From positions 62,001 to 126,000 of the IMG/VR virus record IMGVR_UViG_3300017746_000001: 64,000 nt of DNA; one strand, 5' to 3'. The DNA is from a virus. Each line of letters starts with the position of its first letter. Positions within the stretch are counted from its first letter, which is position 1. This document shows positions 7,544 to 55,080 of the stretch, piece by piece. A program made the position numbers and the translations under genes. Under the pieces are notes generated by a model. That model was not told where the DNA came from, did not search any database, and saw only the letters and a list, made by a program, of their open reading frames with translations.

Positions 7544-10063
7544 ATGGCCGAAGACCTTGTGATGCATTGGTTGGTTCGGCTTAGAGACATTTCAAACAAT
7601 AGAGTCCCAGACATTTCATTGCTCAATGTTGCTCGAAGATTGGGTGGTGTTTCTGGAGACAAACCCCTTGAGAGCAAGTATTATCGGGAAAAGGAACAGA
7701 TAGATGATTCGGTTTTAGAAAAAATAGTCGATGGCTTGAAAGAAGCCTACAACAAAGATAGAGTAGTACCTGGAGAAAATGTAGGTGTTATTGCGGCTCA
7801 TTCCATTTCTGAACCTGGTACTCAGATGACAATGAGGACATTTCATTATGCAGGGGTCGCGAATACGGTCAATCCGTTGGATGCGATGATTGCGGAACAA
7901 TCGATGGTTCGAAGAATATACACAATGGGTCTTGCATTGGGTGAAGATATTAAATTAGATAGAGAAAAGGCCGAAAAATTGCGTTTTGGCGTTATGAGAA
8001 CAAAATTGGGAGATGTTTGCGATATTGATTTCATAGATTATGAATCACAAGATGATATTGTGATTACAATGAAAAAGAAGTCTTCGGAAGATTCTGATGA
8101 AGAATGGGCGGCACTCAATAGTGACAATAGGTTTCCATCTTCTGATGAACTTGTTGAAGCGTTTCAGACTGTTTTCTTTTTCAATTACGCTGGAGACCGG
8201 CGGTCTGATCCAGCAACGAGAGGAATGGAGATGCCTGGTTTGAGGTCGAACATTTCTGTTGGTAAAAATGAAGATGATTCGGTATTTGTCAGGATGCCTC
8301 ACTTCCCTGCTCGGTATAGGACTTCCTTACTGCACCTATTACACAATCTAGAGATTTGCAACAACTGTTCTTACCCCATACAATACATGAAAACACAACA
8401 CCATTCTGAAAAAACCAAAGTAATTTCTAGAGATGATGAATCGGTGCCTTCCAACGAGGATTACTTGGCGATGGCAAAGAATTACATGGACTTTGTTGAA
8501 AGTGGAGACATAGGCCAGATTGGGTTTGTCGAGGACTTAGCCCCAAAGAATAGGGAATCTTTGGCCGATGATGCCGTAGCCGAAGACCTCTTTGAAAAAA
8601 TAGTTGAGGCTTCAAACGACTCAGAGGTTGAGAACTTTGAGGAATTATCTTACGGTTCTCCAGAATGGGCATTAGGGATTCGTAAGCTCTGGACTGCTAC
8701 GCCTGCACACTATACTTTGGAGTTAGCCACTCAGACAGATTTCAAGTGCTGCAGAAGATGTGGCTTGGGTTGGCAGTTAGCTTCGGCAACACTTCGGCAA
8801 GTTGGAGACATAGACATAGACTACCTTATGTCGGAAGATATTTCGATTACAGATAAAACAAAAGTAAAGGATGGTTTTACCAATTTGTATAGTCAGTTGA
8901 CTAAAATTGCAGATCACCCACTAGATGATGTCAATTACGAGATTGTAAGTAAAGGTGATTCTAAAGGTAAGCAGATTCCATCCGATGTTTATGAGGGCGT
9001 TTATCCTGGTTCTGGCCGCGAAGGTTCACTTACAGATTATCCTATACAAACAATGTCTTCTGGCAGAGGAATTGCAGGAGGCGTTGAGGGAGAGTATTTC
9101 CTATATGTTGTAGGCTCAGACACTCGAGGTTCGTCTGATTTCGTTTCTTCCTTACTTAGTGGCCCTGCAGCGAGAAGTTACTTCAATTCACCTATTGCTA
9201 ACGGAAAGGGCTTTTCTAAGGATGTTTGGAAGGATAAACAAAGAGCGTCTTTCGCAGGTTATTTTGCTTTGACCGATGGAGATGATAGGTTTGATTTCAT
9301 GCGTTCAACTTGTGATGATCCGCGACAAGTGTACCATGCTTTAGGGATAGAGCCCGCTAGGATGGTTTTGTTAGAGAATTTGTACCATATTGAAACAAAT
9401 AGCGATGCAGATATAGCAGAGTTCGGAATTTCAAGTGCGGGGCTAGGAGTCCACATTAGCCACATGAGTTTGTTGATTGATGCACTTTGTAGCGGAACTA
9501 CCATGACCACTATCAGGAGTCAATCTTCCATCCAGGGAGGGCAAGGCATCGTTTCTAGAAAAGGCTCTATATCCAAGCAGTTACCAGATGGTTCGCTCGT
9601 TAATTATGGAGAGATGTTAGCCATCGCATCTTATGAAACAGCAAATAGAGTCTTAATGGATGCCTCTTTAATGGGTGTCGTTGATAGAATTCGTTCACTT
9701 AAAGGAGTACAGATTGTAGGAAATTTCGAAAATATAGGTTTTGATGGCACACCTCACAGAAGTAAAGGAGAAAATCTGCATCTTGTTGATGAATTGATAG
9801 CCCTACAAGGAGTAAAAGGGACAAAAGGCATAGGTGGGTTGAAAAAGCAAATCATCGATGAAATGGATTCCTATGTAAGTGAATTATTCAGTGAAGGCTA
9901 TACAATTACTGGTATGATGGAACTTCGAGAGTATGGCCCTCAGTTTGCACAATCTGACAAGTTCGCAATCTTGGCTCGCGACCCTGAATTTTTAGAACTC
10001 AAGTCAAAGCTCAAACGGGTTTTGGCTCGAATAGAAGAGATAAGAAATATTCTTGCGATCTAA
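7544..10063 (+). CDS. rpoA2: Divergent, oversized RNA polymerase subunit A''
   Basis: A'' is the C-terminal half of the archaeal RNAP large subunit and carries the trigger loop. Residues 80-105 hold [19 protein letters not shown] then TFHYAGVA, a nearly canonical trigger-loop region including the conserved His. The usual following G-x-PR motif is replaced. The C-terminal third (from about 645) resembles the end of A'' ([12 protein letters not shown] ... [16 protein letters not shown]). At 839 residues it is about twice the usual 390. The extra middle carries CNNC (about 272) and CCRRC (about 402), perhaps one zinc site. A CTAAACG element lies 20 bases before the ATG. No A', B or other subunit is seen here. 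It could replace the host A'' in a hybrid polymerase or belong to an element-encoded one. Confidence 0.9.
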
Positions 10064-49920: not shown

Positions 49921-50003
49921 AATGCACCACCTACCTCAAGTTTTTGGAGGTTTGACTCCATAGCATTTGGCAGCAGCGCATTGTAATACATATCGTAAAA
50001 CAT
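49917..50003 (-). CDS. 28-residue leader-like peptide
   Basis: Motif-led MFYDMYYNALLPNAMESNLQ. Its first bases, ATGTTTTACGA, match those after the motif upstream of the tRNA gene, so part of its sequence may be a conserved RNA leader. It carries the SD of the next gene. Confidence 0.5.
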   Translation of the reverse strand: MFYDMYYNALLPNAMESNLQKLEVGGAF

Positions 50004-50108: not shown

Positions 50109-51869
50109 TTACTTAGAACGATTTTTTTGAGACACTTTTTTGGGATTCCTGGCTTTGTGAGCCTTATTTCTTTCATCCCTACTCTTGTTTCTCATAGCAA
50201 TCGTTTCCTCGCTGTATGGTACTGCCAGAAGACAAATCGTTGGTTCTCCTGCAAAGTCCTCAACCCTCACTTGAAGGTGGGACGCATTCTTGCCAATATT
50301 CCCGCTTGTTGCGGTCTTGACTACTTGGGGTCTGGCTCTACTAGCATCTCGCGATACCAGTTGGTAGCCATCATTAGCCCCATATGGAAGGAACAAGTGG
50401 GTCTCGCTCAAAGCATCTATCGCTCGAACGAGTCCAGTCAGTTCGTGTAAAGGATCGGCTTCGACTAATTCCTTCGCCCTATTCAGTAAGAAACTGAAAT
50501 TTGTTAGAGCAAGGTCGTCTGAGCCTGTCCTGTTGTTCTGTCCAATTATGTCACATGTAGTCACGCTGCGGTTGAATCCCATAACCTCCAAGAACGGAAG
50601 TATTAGGCTTCTCACCGTCAAATCGCTGATATTATCCTTAGTCAACCAGATTTGAGACTGCGTCTTACCGTATTTGTTTGGCTTGTTCGCGTTCTCTACA
50701 GTTCTGGATGATTTCTTGAAGGCGCTGATGTGGAGTTTAATTCCATATGGGTGATCAAAATTCCAGTTAACCTCTTTGGCTTCCTGAAGCTGATTGCCCT
50801 CTAGTTGCCCTCCATGGGCAGCCACCAGTAGACTTCGTATCATATCTATGCTCAGAGGGGTTTTCCCACTAATCATAAAGTTCAACATAGGATGTATAGC
50901 GGTTCGGCTTGTCGCAAAGGACATTAAGCCTAGACGCGCTAGAACATTATGCTTGAATGCAAATGCATCGGCAAACCATGACGATTCATTGCGCTGGAAG
51001 TTCATTTGAGACTGTGTCAACAATCCCATTGCAATAGAGTTAGTCCTTTTTGGGTCAGGGAACGACATTTTTGTGTCTTTACCCTTACCGGACCTTCTCG
51101 GGGCTGATTCTATCTTGAAACAGCCTTGAACTTGCGCATTTTCATCTCCTGGACAAGTAACGATGTCATAGAGAGTCCATGTCGAGCATTCTGAAACTGC
51201 TTCTGTCATAATAAAGCCGAATTGAACGCCATCAGGCTTGTCTTTGCGGTTGTTAAGCGCTTCAACAAAGTCCTCGACATTCTCTCGACTGTATAGACCA
51301 GACGCAGCTATTCCACTAGACTGCAAATCGGAATGCATCTTTACATCTTCTGCGATGTCGATGCTCATTCCTAGCATGCTAGCAAATAAACTCGTGTCTC
51401 CTCCACCGTCTTCCAACGAAGAAATAATTGCGTATGAAGCTCCAAATCCGCGTGAGATTCTCTTCTCCCCAGGCTTTCGTGGATTATCCTCGAATATCTC
51501 TGGGTGGCGGTTTTCTAGTTCTGCTAGCCATTGCTTTCTATTGTGCGCATGATCTTTGCCTGTCACTATAACTTTGGAACGGATTCCGCAAATATTCGCT
51601 TCTCCGTATTTCCCTGTCTGTTGTCGTGCTAGGTCCATCGATTCAATTGCGTTCGCATTGACTTGTGCCTTTTCGCTTTCTTTCTGTTGGTTTGTGTGTA
51701 CACTAATGATTTCATCAATTAACAGATGTTTCTTAGGGTAATGTGAGAGTGTTATTCCCATTCCCTTTGCCTGTTCTCTTAGTTCTACCATTGTGTTCTT
51801 ATCCATTTTTTCATGTAGTGTAGCCTCTTGTGTGCTACCATTGCCTGTATAATTATTGTAAATTACCAT
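50109..51869 (-). CDS. 586-residue protein of unknown function
   Basis: Motif-led. Residues 22-55 (NTMVELREQAKGMGITLSHY, LIDEI) look like a SAP-like helix-turn-helix. The rest is a large alpha/beta region with no enzyme motif I know, and the C-terminus is very basic (KAHKARNPKKVSQKNRSK). It lies next to the large structured RNA and could be its protein partner or a virion protein; both are inference. Confidence 0.7.
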   Translation of the reverse strand: MVIYNNYTGNGSTQEATLHEKMDKNTMVELREQAKGMGITLSHYPKKHLLIDEIISVHTNQQKESEKAQVNANAIESMDLARQQTGKYGEANICGIRSKVIVTGKDHAHNRKQWLAELENRHPEIFEDNPRKPGEKRISRGFGASYAIISSLEDGGGDTSLFASMLGMSIDIAEDVKMHSDLQSSGIAASGLYSRENVEDFVEALNNRKDKPDGVQFGFIMTEAVSECSTWTLYDIVTCPGDENAQVQGCFKIESAPRRSGKGKDTKMSFPDPKRTNSIAMGLLTQSQMNFQRNESSWFADAFAFKHNVLARLGLMSFATSRTAIHPMLNFMISGKTPLSIDMIRSLLVAAHGGQLEGNQLQEAKEVNWNFDHPYGIKLHISAFKKSSRTVENANKPNKYGKTQSQIWLTKDNISDLTVRSLILPFLEVMGFNRSVTTCDIIGQNNRTGSDDLALTNFSFLLNRAKELVEADPLHELTGLVRAIDALSETHLFLPYGANDGYQLVSRDASRARPQVVKTATSGNIGKNASHLQVRVEDFAGEPTICLLAVPYSEETIAMRNKSRDERNKAHKARNPKKVSQKNRSK

Positions 51870-51879
51870 GGTCAGTCAA

Positions 51880-52340
51880 ATAGTTGAGTATTCTAATTCT
51901 AGAGCAGCCTCTCTACTGCAGGCTTGCTAATATTGCAATACTAGCGGGTGCCTTCACTCACGAGTTCTAATTCGTGTATTGAGTTATTCGAGTTTTACCT
52001 CAAATACTACTCTAGAAGGGCTAGACCAAGCGTTCTGCTTTCACAGATTACCATTCTCGCCCCTGGTTGTTTGGCCTTTCGGCCTGATGGCATCATTTTA
52101 TCCCCTCTGCAACATCTCTGCTGGAAAGGACTGGACTCAATTATCGGATTTCCACTTCATCCGACCATCATTTTGTGGCCTCTCGGCCCTAGGTTTGCGA
52201 GGTTTCGCTCGCTCCGTTTACCCTCTCGGGCCTCGGTGTAGTTTGTATGAAGCCTCTCGGCTTCGTATGCAACTTCCTTCACCCTCAATTCCGGAACCCT
52301 GCATGGGCCTGCGCACTTTTGGTTGCGCATAGTAATACAT
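51880..52340 (-). ncRNA. Large structured RNA of about 450 nt
   Basis: No gene of fitting start lies here. Minus-strand hairpins with GNRA loops follow one another: GAAGCC GAGA GGCTTC (52249-52264), CCC GAGA GGG (52221-52230), GGCC GAGA GGCC (52177-52188), TCGGAT..ATCCGA (52144-52164), GGCC GAAA GGCC (52073-52084) and GCGCA..TGCGC near 52311-52329. GNRA loops identify the minus strand as the RNA. It starts at ACTAATCATG. It resembles in style, not in sequence I know, the big ornate RNAs of phages (GOLLD, ROOL). Confidence 0.75.
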
Positions 52341-52347
52341 GATTAGT

Positions 52348-52444
52348 TTACGAACCTACTAAATTCTTCTTAACTCATAAAGAATCTCGTAGTGAGTTAT
52401 GCAATAGAAAGCCAAAGGCTTTCTAGTGCTATTTCGTAATACAT
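52348..52444 (-). ncRNA. Small structured RNA, about 97 nt
   Basis: Starts at the same 16-base sequence as the large RNA (ACTAATCATGTATTAC). Two strong stems: AGAAAGCC TTT GGCTTTCT and TAACTCA..TGAGTTA. No open frame. It ends where the large RNA's start motif begins, so the two are adjacent transcription or processing units. Confidence 0.6.
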
Positions 52445-52521
52445 GATTAGTCCGAGATTGTTACTCACCACCTTATCTCGAATCGGGTGGGTCATAGTAT
52501 CTGCCATGAAATTTTTTGAAT

Positions 52522-52785: not shown

Positions 52786-52798
52786 GGTTAGTTTTGGC

Positions 52799-52871
52799 GG
52801 GTCTAGCAGGGTTCGAACCTGCGGCCTTCCGGTTAAGAGCCGGACGCTCTACCTGACTAAGCTATAGACCC
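52799..52871 (-). tRNA. tRNA-Lys (CUU)
   Basis: A full 73-nt cloverleaf: acceptor GGGTCTA/TAGACCC (7 perfect pairs), D-arm GCTTAGTCAGGTAGAGC, anticodon stem TCCGG/CCGGA with loop CTCTTAA giving anticodon CUU, five-base variable loop, T-arm GCAGG TTCGAAC CCTGC. CCA is not encoded. A variant start motif lies about 36 bases upstream. Confidence 0.95.
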
Positions 52872-52879
52872 TTTTGACC

Positions 52880-52914
52880 CTCTGACGAGGGTTTTGTCGT
52901 AAAACATTGTTAGT
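52880..52914 (-). promoter_or_regulatory. Motif-variant leader of the tRNA gene
   Basis: ACTAACAATG followed by TTTTACGA and a CCCTC gtca GAGGG hairpin just before the tRNA. There is no protein frame, so the motif here must act on transcription or RNA processing and not on translation. Confidence 0.65.
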
Positions 52915-53570
52915 AGTAACATGTCGGTCTTTCCCGACTGTCTTTGTTTGATGAGATCAAGTCCCATCATGCGTATTTTATCAGCAATACATTATCAAAC
53001 TTCCTCGGGCATAGCCCGCACAACATCTTTTCCCTCGACCTAATCGTTAGGGAAATTCGTAGCCTGATTTGTGTTCACCGTTAGGTGTGTTGCATATCTT
53101 CCAGAGGTTAGCTTCTACCAGATTTCTCATTCTCAGAGTCAAGTTACCTGTTGGTAATCCTGTTCTGTGAGGCTGGTTTCGCAACGCCGCTTTCGCTTTT
53201 TCTCTCTCTCAATACTGCTGTAACGCATTTAGCGTATGTGTATGACACCCAATTCATCCCTAAATGGGGGCCGCCCGCCTTTTTGTTTCCAAAAATTGGA
53301 CTTTGGTTTCTGTTCATTCCTCTCAAGGAGGAGGCAACTACGCCCCAAAGTGATTCCAACTAGGTTAATCTGCTAAGAAAAACCCATTTGGCGGGTTACT
53401 CATCATGCATTCGAGCGAGAATAAATCTCGGGATTACTTCGTGAAATGCATGAGTTATTAATCCGGTGTTCCATGTTACTCTCACACATTCCTCAATGTT
53501 AGCACATTGCTTGTGTAAGTAGATCGTGTAGCCCCTCGGGGCAACCAGATGGAGAACTCTCGTTCTCACT
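52915..53570 (-). ncRNA. Structured gene-free stretch, candidate second large RNA
   Basis: About 650 bases without a supported gene. Minus-strand stems include CGGGC TAT GCCCG, TTACC aaca GGTAA, CACACC taac GGTG, CCTAAcgaTTAGG, GTCGGgaaagaCCGAC, GC GAAA GC and GCCCC GA GGGGC. Longer frames inside cross these stems and have neither motif nor SD. May be one large RNA or several. Confidence 0.55.
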
Positions 53571-53576
53571 ATATAG

Positions 53577-53690
53577 GCCATCGGCCCTCTAGAAGAGAGC
53601 CAAATACAGCCTTTCAGGCGCTTTGACACGCCTTTACACTATATAGGCCAACGGCTCTCTAGAAGAGAGCCATAGTTAGTACCATATAGA
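53577..53690 (-). repeat. Duplicated hairpin plus GCCGATGGC-TATA element
   Basis: Two copies, 70 bases apart, of a unit with a GGCTCTC ttcta GAGAGCC hairpin, GCCGATGGC (one copy GCCGTTGGC) and CTATATAGTG. A motif variant ACTAACTATG lies at the upstream end. The TATATA suggests promoter function. Confidence 0.65.
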
Positions 53691-53708
53691 GTAATTACTG
53701 TAGTATAC

Positions 53709-54152
53709 GCCATCGGCATTCTTGAACTAGGGACATAAATGCCTCTATTTCGTGTCAAATTAGCCTGTTACCAGGCGTTTTTCGAACCGTATGGCGATCT
53801 GAAGCTATTCACTACAATAAGTTAGTAGTAAATAGCCGCTATACTGTAGCATACGCCATCGGCCTTCTTGAAGAACGGACATTTCGTACCGTTCTAACTG
53901 CAAATCTGCCTGTTTCCAGGTGTCTTCTGAACCGAATAGCGATCTAAAGCTACTTACCACTATAAGTTAGTAGTAAATAGCCGCTATACTGTAGCATACG
54001 CCATCGGCATTTATCAAACAAGCCCTAATAGACTGTTTTTTCGGACCCCTAGGTGATTTTCCTAAGTGATCTGATATTCTTAGCTCACATATTTGTAAAT
54101 GTGTGCAAAGTTAATACCGAGTAGCACAATTGCTACTAATTACGCCATCGGC
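53709..54152 (-). repeat. Three tandem ~145-bp ncRNA-like units
   Basis: GCCGATGGCGTA recurs at 54144, 54000, 53855 and 53709 (spacing 144, 145 and 146). The units at 54000 and 53855 share the first 45 bases exactly (to CTACTAACTTAT), then diverge while keeping AGATCGC, CGGTTC and a CCTG..CAGG hairpin. The unit at 54144 is more distant but has the same order. No open frames. Each looks like promoter, ACTAAC start and a roughly 100-nt RNA. Confidence 0.72.
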
Positions 54153-54183
54153 ATTAATTAAGCAATCCCATTCTGACAGAAAT

Positions 54184-55080
54184 ATGGCTGATGCTCTGAG
54201 TATGGGACTTCGCTCTTTTGAAGGATTGAATTGCCCTGTAGGAAAACCTCCAGAGTGTATTTTTTCTGGAGGGGGCATCGAACTCAATACTGATGATAAC
54301 AAAGTTTTGGACAATCCTTCCTGCCCAGTCTGTGGATTAACCCCCGAACTAATGATTATGGAAAGTAGTTTAACATTCGATTCTGAGGGGCGAGCAATAG
54401 CTCCAGTTACTTTATCACTTACAGGTTCGCAAAGAAATAGAAGAGAGTTTAGAAACAAACTAACTGAAATGCTACTTAATCCGAAATTCGAACTATCTGC
54501 AAATGCACAGGGTCAAGGTGTGATTTACTTCGAAAAATTGTTAGATGCAGGGTATCACAAAGGAGGAACTGGTTTAGATGCTGTCACTCATACATCGATT
54601 TATTTAGCAACTAGATTTGATTACAACTTTGTGCCGTTAGATCAGATAGTTAATTCCGATTCTATTTTGAAGAAGAAAGTTAACAGGTTAGTGAAGAGAG
54701 CGATTAACGAGAAAGTAATAGAAAGACCTGTTGCTGAACCTTTATCTGTACTTAATTCCGTATTAGCGAGAAAACCTCAAACATCAGAAGTAGAGAAGCG
54801 AGCAAGGGAATTATCTAGAATACATGTACCAGGACTTCGCCCCCAATATCATGCTGCGGCTTCATTGTACATGGCACTTAGAGAAAATAACTCTAGATGG
54901 GAAGAGTGGATGAGCCAGGAATCCGTAGGAGAGATTTTTCACATTGGCAGAAAATCAGTAGGTTTAGGCTACAAGGCTATATCTGAAAGAGTGAATCCAA
55001 AGGATAACCCCCCTCCTAAGTGGGAAACTGGTCCAGGACTAACTGCTTCTCAAATACGCCAATTAAGAAAGTTGAGGTAA
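54184..55080 (+). CDS. Probable TFB-like transcription factor
   Basis: TFB bridges promoter and RNAP in archaea and has a zinc ribbon and two cyclin folds. Here 298 residues: an odd N-terminal Cys pattern (C..C and CPVC near residue 50), then LDAVTHTSIYLATRFDYNFV ... KKKVNRLVKRAI, like cyclin repeat one, and HAAASLYMALREN ... VGEIFHIGRKSVGLGYKAIS, like repeat two with its helix-turn-helix. Length matches TFB. Start: ATG chosen; a TTG lies 18 codons earlier. It diverges from the RNA array. Confidence 0.62.
   Translation: MADALSMGLRSFEGLNCPVGKPPECIFSGGGIELNTDDNKVLDNPSCPVCGLTPELMIMESSLTFDSEGRAIAPVTLSLTGSQRNRREFRNKLTEMLLNPKFELSANAQGQGVIYFEKLLDAGYHKGGTGLDAVTHTSIYLATRFDYNFVPLDQIVNSDSILKKKVNRLVKRAINEKVIERPVAEPLSVLNSVLARKPQTSEVEKRARELSRIHVPGLRPQYHAAASLYMALRENNSRWEEWMSQESVGEIFHIGRKSVGLGYKAISERVNPKDNPPPKWETGPGLTASQIRQLRKLR

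Follow-up and report, generated by a model that had tools for sequence, protein, structure and literature searches.

Large ornate RNAs have been described from bacteria and their phages. The locus studied here raises the question whether an archaeal virus also encodes such an RNA, as the initial annotation suggested for a gene-free stretch of ~450 nt. The analysed DNA (the window) comprises 64,000 nt, positions 62,001-126,000 of the virus record IMGVR_UViG_3300017746_000001 (128,784 bp). Since the ends of this record share a 123-bp repeat, the genome is complete or nearly so, with ~128.7 kb. We propose, with a probability of roughly 0.6, that the stretch encodes a conserved, independently folding RNA of an archaeal tailed-virus family, here called RNA A, which is a unit of a minus-strand RNA locus, is released at a sequence motif and acts in trans. 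Its structure, strand bias, conservation with compensatory changes and place between motif copies are observed, while release and action in trans are inferred in the absence of expression data.

Table 1. Features of the RNA locus and its flanks (window coordinates)
Feature	Position	Strand	Basis or remark
586-aa protein, function unknown, downstream of RNA A	50109..51869	-	homologue L227:1-1205(-), 24% identity
Motif ACTGACC, directly before next gene; 3' border of RNA A	51870..51876	-	motif scan
RNA A, ~455-nt structured noncoding RNA unit	51889..52344	-	between two gene-start motif copies; fold, GNRA count, homologue L227:1757-2358(-)
H6 hairpin GGCC-GAAA-GGCC	52073..52084	-	same sequence in L227
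P5 helix, closes middle domain, UGAUGGU/GCCAUCA	52085..52170	-	L227: UGAAGGU/GCCUUCA
RNA A conserved core: H1 GAGA hairpin, 47-nt identical block, H2 GAGA hairpin	52175..52274	-	covariance model R1
H4 hairpin GGCC-GAGA-GGCC	52177..52188	-	L227: GCCC-GAGACA-GGGC
H2 hairpin GCCC-GAGA-GGGU	52220..52231	-	same sequence in L227
H1 hairpin, GAGA loop	52246..52267	-	stem AAGCC/GGCUU here, GGGUC/GACCC in L227 (three double changes)
5' element ACTAATC-ATGTATTAC of RNA A	52332..52347	-	exact copy at 52436-52451, close copy in tRNA leader 52899-52914
Small hairpin unit, 5' element as in RNA A	52348..52451	-	repeat/motif comparison
tRNA-Lys (CTT)	52795..52871	-	ARAGORN span; ACTAACA-ATG motif ~40 nt upstream
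RNA C core: CR-IV-like (near 53099), CR-V (near 53076), P2/P3-like hairpins, then CR-I (53008); putatively permuted	52990..53106	-	Rfam match, P4 covariation
B array: tandem ~145-nt repeats with CCGAUGGC motif and GNRA hairpins	53535..54160	-	adjoins TFB-like gene; also in L227, motif in L214
TFB-like gene flanking RNA locus	54130..55080	+	listed ORF start; true start may be later

The structured RNA that had been annotated is real. On the minus strand the sequence 51880-52340 folds with an MFE of -158.8 kcal/mol (z -6.67), a stability reached by none of 100 shuffled sequences, while z is only -2.4 on the plus strand; with 60 shuffles, 51889-52344 gave z values of -5.6 (minus) and -3.4 (plus). 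Among 96 background windows of 461 nt the mean z was -1.25, but one genic window reached -5.0. Therefore, the stability of RNA A is high but not unique and by itself not decisive. The GNRA-capped hairpins settle the matter where stability would not: five are present on the minus strand, including the four closed by C-G that had already been pointed out, and none on the plus strand, while shuffled sequences contained 0.12 on average and at most 2 (300 shuffles). No other 461-nt window scanned has a higher count. The predicted helices are well defined, and one that closes the ends (52338-52330 with 51895-51888) confirms the annotated boundaries almost exactly. In agreement with the gene-free assignment no coding signal was found, as ORFs overlapping RNA A have coding scores under the antisense-frame mean of real genes. 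The plus strand has two ORFs (97 and 117 aa), which we dismissed as chance antisense frames.

Homologues had been recommended in the annotation as a source of base-pair support. Searches of viral contigs with single proteins (the 586-aa protein, the TFB-like protein, the chaperonin and an RNAP fragment) gave no matches, and relatives were reached stepwise: a chaperonin alignment led to a first relative, its capsid-region protein to the genome G634, and a locus-near protein to the loci L227 and L228. In the related virus L227 (IMGVR_UViG_3300020470_000017), RNA A occupies the corresponding place, downstream of a tRNA-Lys, and its unit folds at z -6.05. Over the core 62 nt align at 90% identity and a block of 47 nt is identical, whereas the protein encoded downstream shares only 24%. 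The six core helices comprise 27 pairs, of which 21 are unchanged and six double-changed in L227, with no one-sided change and no broken pair; in H1 the GAGA loop is kept although 3/5 stem pairs are replaced. The helices were picked by hand, so that the six double changes do not amount to a blind test, and because of the poor alignment of the 3' half, claims of conservation are limited to the 5' two thirds. Nevertheless, a homologue in which all 27 pairs remain paired, six of them through compensatory double changes, identifies RNA A as a structured RNA that is conserved.

This evidence rests on one homologue and its compensatory changes, as inferred from sequence, and the function is unknown. 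A covariance model of the core (R1) scores 114 bits in the window and 113 bits in L227, both of which were used in building it, and retrieved further candidates only at chance level (E 0.5 or worse). L227 remains the only clear homologue, since no RNA A could be detected in L214, in L228 or in those more distant records that were searched. The search for RNA A in a Thermoplasmatota phylum (390 genomes) and in one of its orders (319 genomes) gave tRNA or chance-level matches only, and a DNA similarity search of phage and plasmid collections with the RNA locus gave tRNA-type matches only.

The conserved loops also bear on whether the structure is merely a by-product of DNA-level elements, such as inverted repeats for replication or packaging. 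In favour of this, the B array nearby consists of tandem repeats next to a divergent gene, as expected of an origin or a promoter array. However, the GNRA loops of RNA A are strand specific (5 vs 0) and preserved over replaced stems, which points to RNA and leaves this explanation hardly credible.

The annotation had considered the RNA undescribed, and a covariance-model search of Rfam supports this, as neither the window RNA nor its L227 homologue gives a match at E<=10. RNase P and other Rfam families were rejected for RNA A because of this absence of a match. Its comparison with GOLLD and ROOL holds as an analogy only, since neither model matches. Both of these are RNAs of phages, are often encoded close to tRNA islands and assemble into cages made of RNA alone (PMC12286853). 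GOLLD, like RNA A, is a large structured RNA in tailed-virus genomes, near or containing tRNAs, but it lacks any sequence or covariance-model similarity to RNA A, belongs to bacterial phages and prophages and is longer (>800 nt, PMC12286853). ROOL is likewise an ornate phage-encoded RNA by tRNA islands; RNA A lies near a tRNA in a phage-type genome, though of an archaeal and not a bacterial virus, and a pseudoknot or cage architecture has not been shown for it. That RNA A is a multimeric cage or scaffold of this kind would fit its size, its richness in GNRA loops and its place near a tRNA in a phage-type genome, but it matches neither Rfam family at E<=10, is shorter than GOLLD, and there is no kissing-loop or multimer evidence, so we consider this unlikely. 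By analogy RNA A perhaps works like a GOLLD/ROOL-type RNA, which is not shown. As far as sequence and predicted fold can tell, RNA A is a conserved structured minus-strand RNA that belongs to neither GOLLD nor ROOL and in our view represents a new family.

The 5' motif that had been assigned to the RNA is real, but it is not specific to RNA A: ACTAATC-ATG is a variant of the gene-start sequence ACTGACC-ATG. The latter or a close variant occurs at 68 minus-strand sites of the window, 57 of which lead ORFs of at least 60 codons. ACTGACC (variant ACTAAYM) stands directly before ~55 start codons, i.e. most minus-strand genes of the window, and the exact 10-mer is found on this strand 60 times, compared to a single copy in the remainder of the genome. 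The motif-bearing stretch of the window extends over ~11.7-52.9 kb of the minus strand. Motif variants followed by ATGTWTTAC stand at the start of RNA A, of the small unit (52,444) and of the tRNA leader; elsewhere in the window this combination is confined to a short ORF near 50,003 and the sequence beside it. The annotated region is one unit of a larger RNA locus of ~2.3 kb, and its 5' motif belongs to the whole operon. An 8-nt partial complement between RNA A and the ACTGACC motif, noticed by eye, was dismissed as about chance level by a rough hand estimate.

In four viruses one 7-mer each precedes ATG (ACTGACC 54 times, ACTGAAC 40 and 63 times, ACCGCTC 76 times). The version is ACTGACC in the window, ACTGAAC in G634 and G636 and ACCGCTC in G637, on one strand only per virus; the virus of L228 has ACCGCTC. 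In G634 (locus L214) ACTTAAC/ACTGAAC copies that lack an ATG immediately flank each of several closed-stem RNAs and a tRNA-Arg, which shows that the motif is more than a translation signal. It varies between viruses, is single within each, and marks coding and noncoding units alike. No other upstream or promoter signal was seen at the minus-strand sites of the window or in G634/L214, and therefore the mechanism of 5'-end formation, promoter/initiator or RNA cleavage, remains undecided. A pattern search with the motif ATACTGACCATGGCAA gave isolated, apparently chance sites only. The tandem small RNAs around the tRNA-Arg (L214:9900-10454(+)) have closing stems of 9-11 bp (GGAGAAUGCC../..GGCAUUCUCC; GGAAGAGGG../..CCCUCUUCC) and no Rfam match.

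RNA A could also be a cis-acting 5' leader of the gene for the 586-aa protein, riboswitch-like or ribosomal-entry-like. In the window it ends ~13 nt before the motif and ATG of this gene, both on one strand. In L227, however, RNA A lies ~550 nt and several noncoding units upstream of the homologous gene, a separation that makes action as a leader less likely, and in the window RNA A, like the tRNA, has a motif copy of its own at which it begins. We regard a leader function as improbable. Two near-identical noncoding repeats of ~170 nt (L227:1409-1758(-)) are found between RNA A and the protein gene of L227.

The tRNA gene near which the RNA had been placed is a tRNA-Lys(CTT), ~450 nt away, with a short ORF and the small hairpin unit in between. 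Beside it lies RNA C, which also occurs at L227:2839-2985(-), L228:2912-3068(-) and, weakly, L214:5498-5618(+). The region from the tRNA to the TFB-like gene can be aligned between the window and L227 at 61% across 914 columns (E 5e-42); part of it is also common to L227 and L228. The sole Rfam match of the L227 RNA C at E<=10 is archaeal RNase P RNA (RF00373) at CR-V, with 9.7 bits (E 1.8). This is below the cut-off of 84, as would be expected if RNA C were permuted. RNA C and RF00373 have in common a CR-V near-match, a CR-I-like GAGGAAGU and a covarying P4 helix. The archaeal CR-V consensus gugaACAGAAGGgGGcUUA is met by L227 (GUGAACAGAAGGUGGGCUAU), while the window copy departs from it (ACACAA for ACAGAA). 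The P4-like helix of CR-I and CR-V has 24/24 cells paired with four double-change pairs; of 2,078 8-bp helices tested, no other is paired throughout. In contrast to RF00373, where CR-I is located 5' of CR-V, the CR-I-like CCGAGGAAGU of three viruses is always found 3' of CR-V, so that the order is circularly permuted. The rest of RNA C is unmatched, and for CR-II/CR-III of the specificity domain only a look-alike, GAAACCGGCC, was recognised by eye. In G634, a model of the RNA C core has a weak match (20.8 bits, E 0.057) that falls into the syntenic noncoding region and lies on the strand expected.

The RNase P RNAs of the presumed hosts have the usual order and carry GAGGAAAGUCC. In these hosts (G263:C23:27672-28916, G257:C16:21342-22602) the tRNA-Lys that best matches the viral tRNA has the RNase P RNA gene at a distance of ~0.9 kb. 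We give even odds to a permuted RNase P origin of RNA C; caution is called for because the permuted order departs from a defining feature of RNase P RNA, the window copy reads ACACAA at CR-V and the specificity domain is not established. A functional tie of RNA A to RNA C, e.g. in a viral tRNA-processing RNP, would agree with the shared locus, strand and motif and with the RNase P signatures of RNA C. But RNA A has neither an RNase P motif nor an Rfam match, and it was not found in L228, which has RNA C; such a partnership appears very unlikely.

The CCGATGGC motif of the B array is common to the window, L227 and L214, and it is undecided whether the array has a role as RNA or as DNA. Tandem repeats beside the TFB-like gene are also present at L214:4545-4995(+) and L228:3690-4240, those of L228 being its own. 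On the minus strand the order of the locus is B repeats, RNase P-like RNA C, tRNA-Lys, small units and RNA A, with the TFB-like gene adjacent, and by sequence comparison the arrangement of the RNA locus is conserved. For RNA A as a motif-released, trans-acting unit of this locus, we propose that the 7-nt motif would set the 5' end of each unit, either by cleavage of a polycistronic transcript or as a transcription start. In this way RNA A would be set free as a separate molecule that its end helix closes, and its GNRA loops and the invariant 47-nt block may pack it into a compact fold. It could act in trans during infection as a structural or ribonucleoprotein RNA.

The source of the window is a large archaeal tailed virus, whose presumed hosts are marine-type archaea. 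The archaeal context, already assumed in the initial annotation, follows from genes for a group II chaperonin and for RNAP A''-like, TFB-like and PCNA-like proteins, together with the viral tRNA-Lys, whose best matches (94% identical) are found in one archaeal order, a group of small Thermoplasmatota genomes. From the phylum, the size of the genomes and the number of species we infer this presumed-host order to be Poseidoniales. The RNAP A''-like protein (839 aa; window 7544-10063 (+)) has 35-40% identity to cellular A'' across the conserved part. Magroviruses (Magrovirales) and other Poseidoniales viruses are likewise archaeal tailed viruses with TFB and PCNA genes, and Magroviruses share the chaperonin gene. 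However, their ICTV profiles give 87-100 kb, compared to ~128.7 kb here, and mention no comparable RNA locus (PMC10768690, PMC13108676).

The titles and abstracts of the literature searched revealed no natural permuted or virus-carried RNase P RNA, and we know of no earlier one. To our knowledge, RNA C would be without precedent on both counts, provided that it is indeed a permuted RNase P RNA. It is possible, though we hold this only tentatively and at less than even odds, that archaeal viruses encode an RNA-maturation locus in which a permuted RNase P RNA, a tRNA and a new class of ornate RNA are combined with a virus-specific, co-evolving 7-nt element that sets the 5' ends of mRNAs and noncoding RNAs. 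The motif common to genes, tRNAs and RNAs offers a direct test of mRNA 5'-end formation in these viruses. A conserved ornate RNA in a tRNA locus of archaeal tailed viruses would extend such RNAs to another domain.
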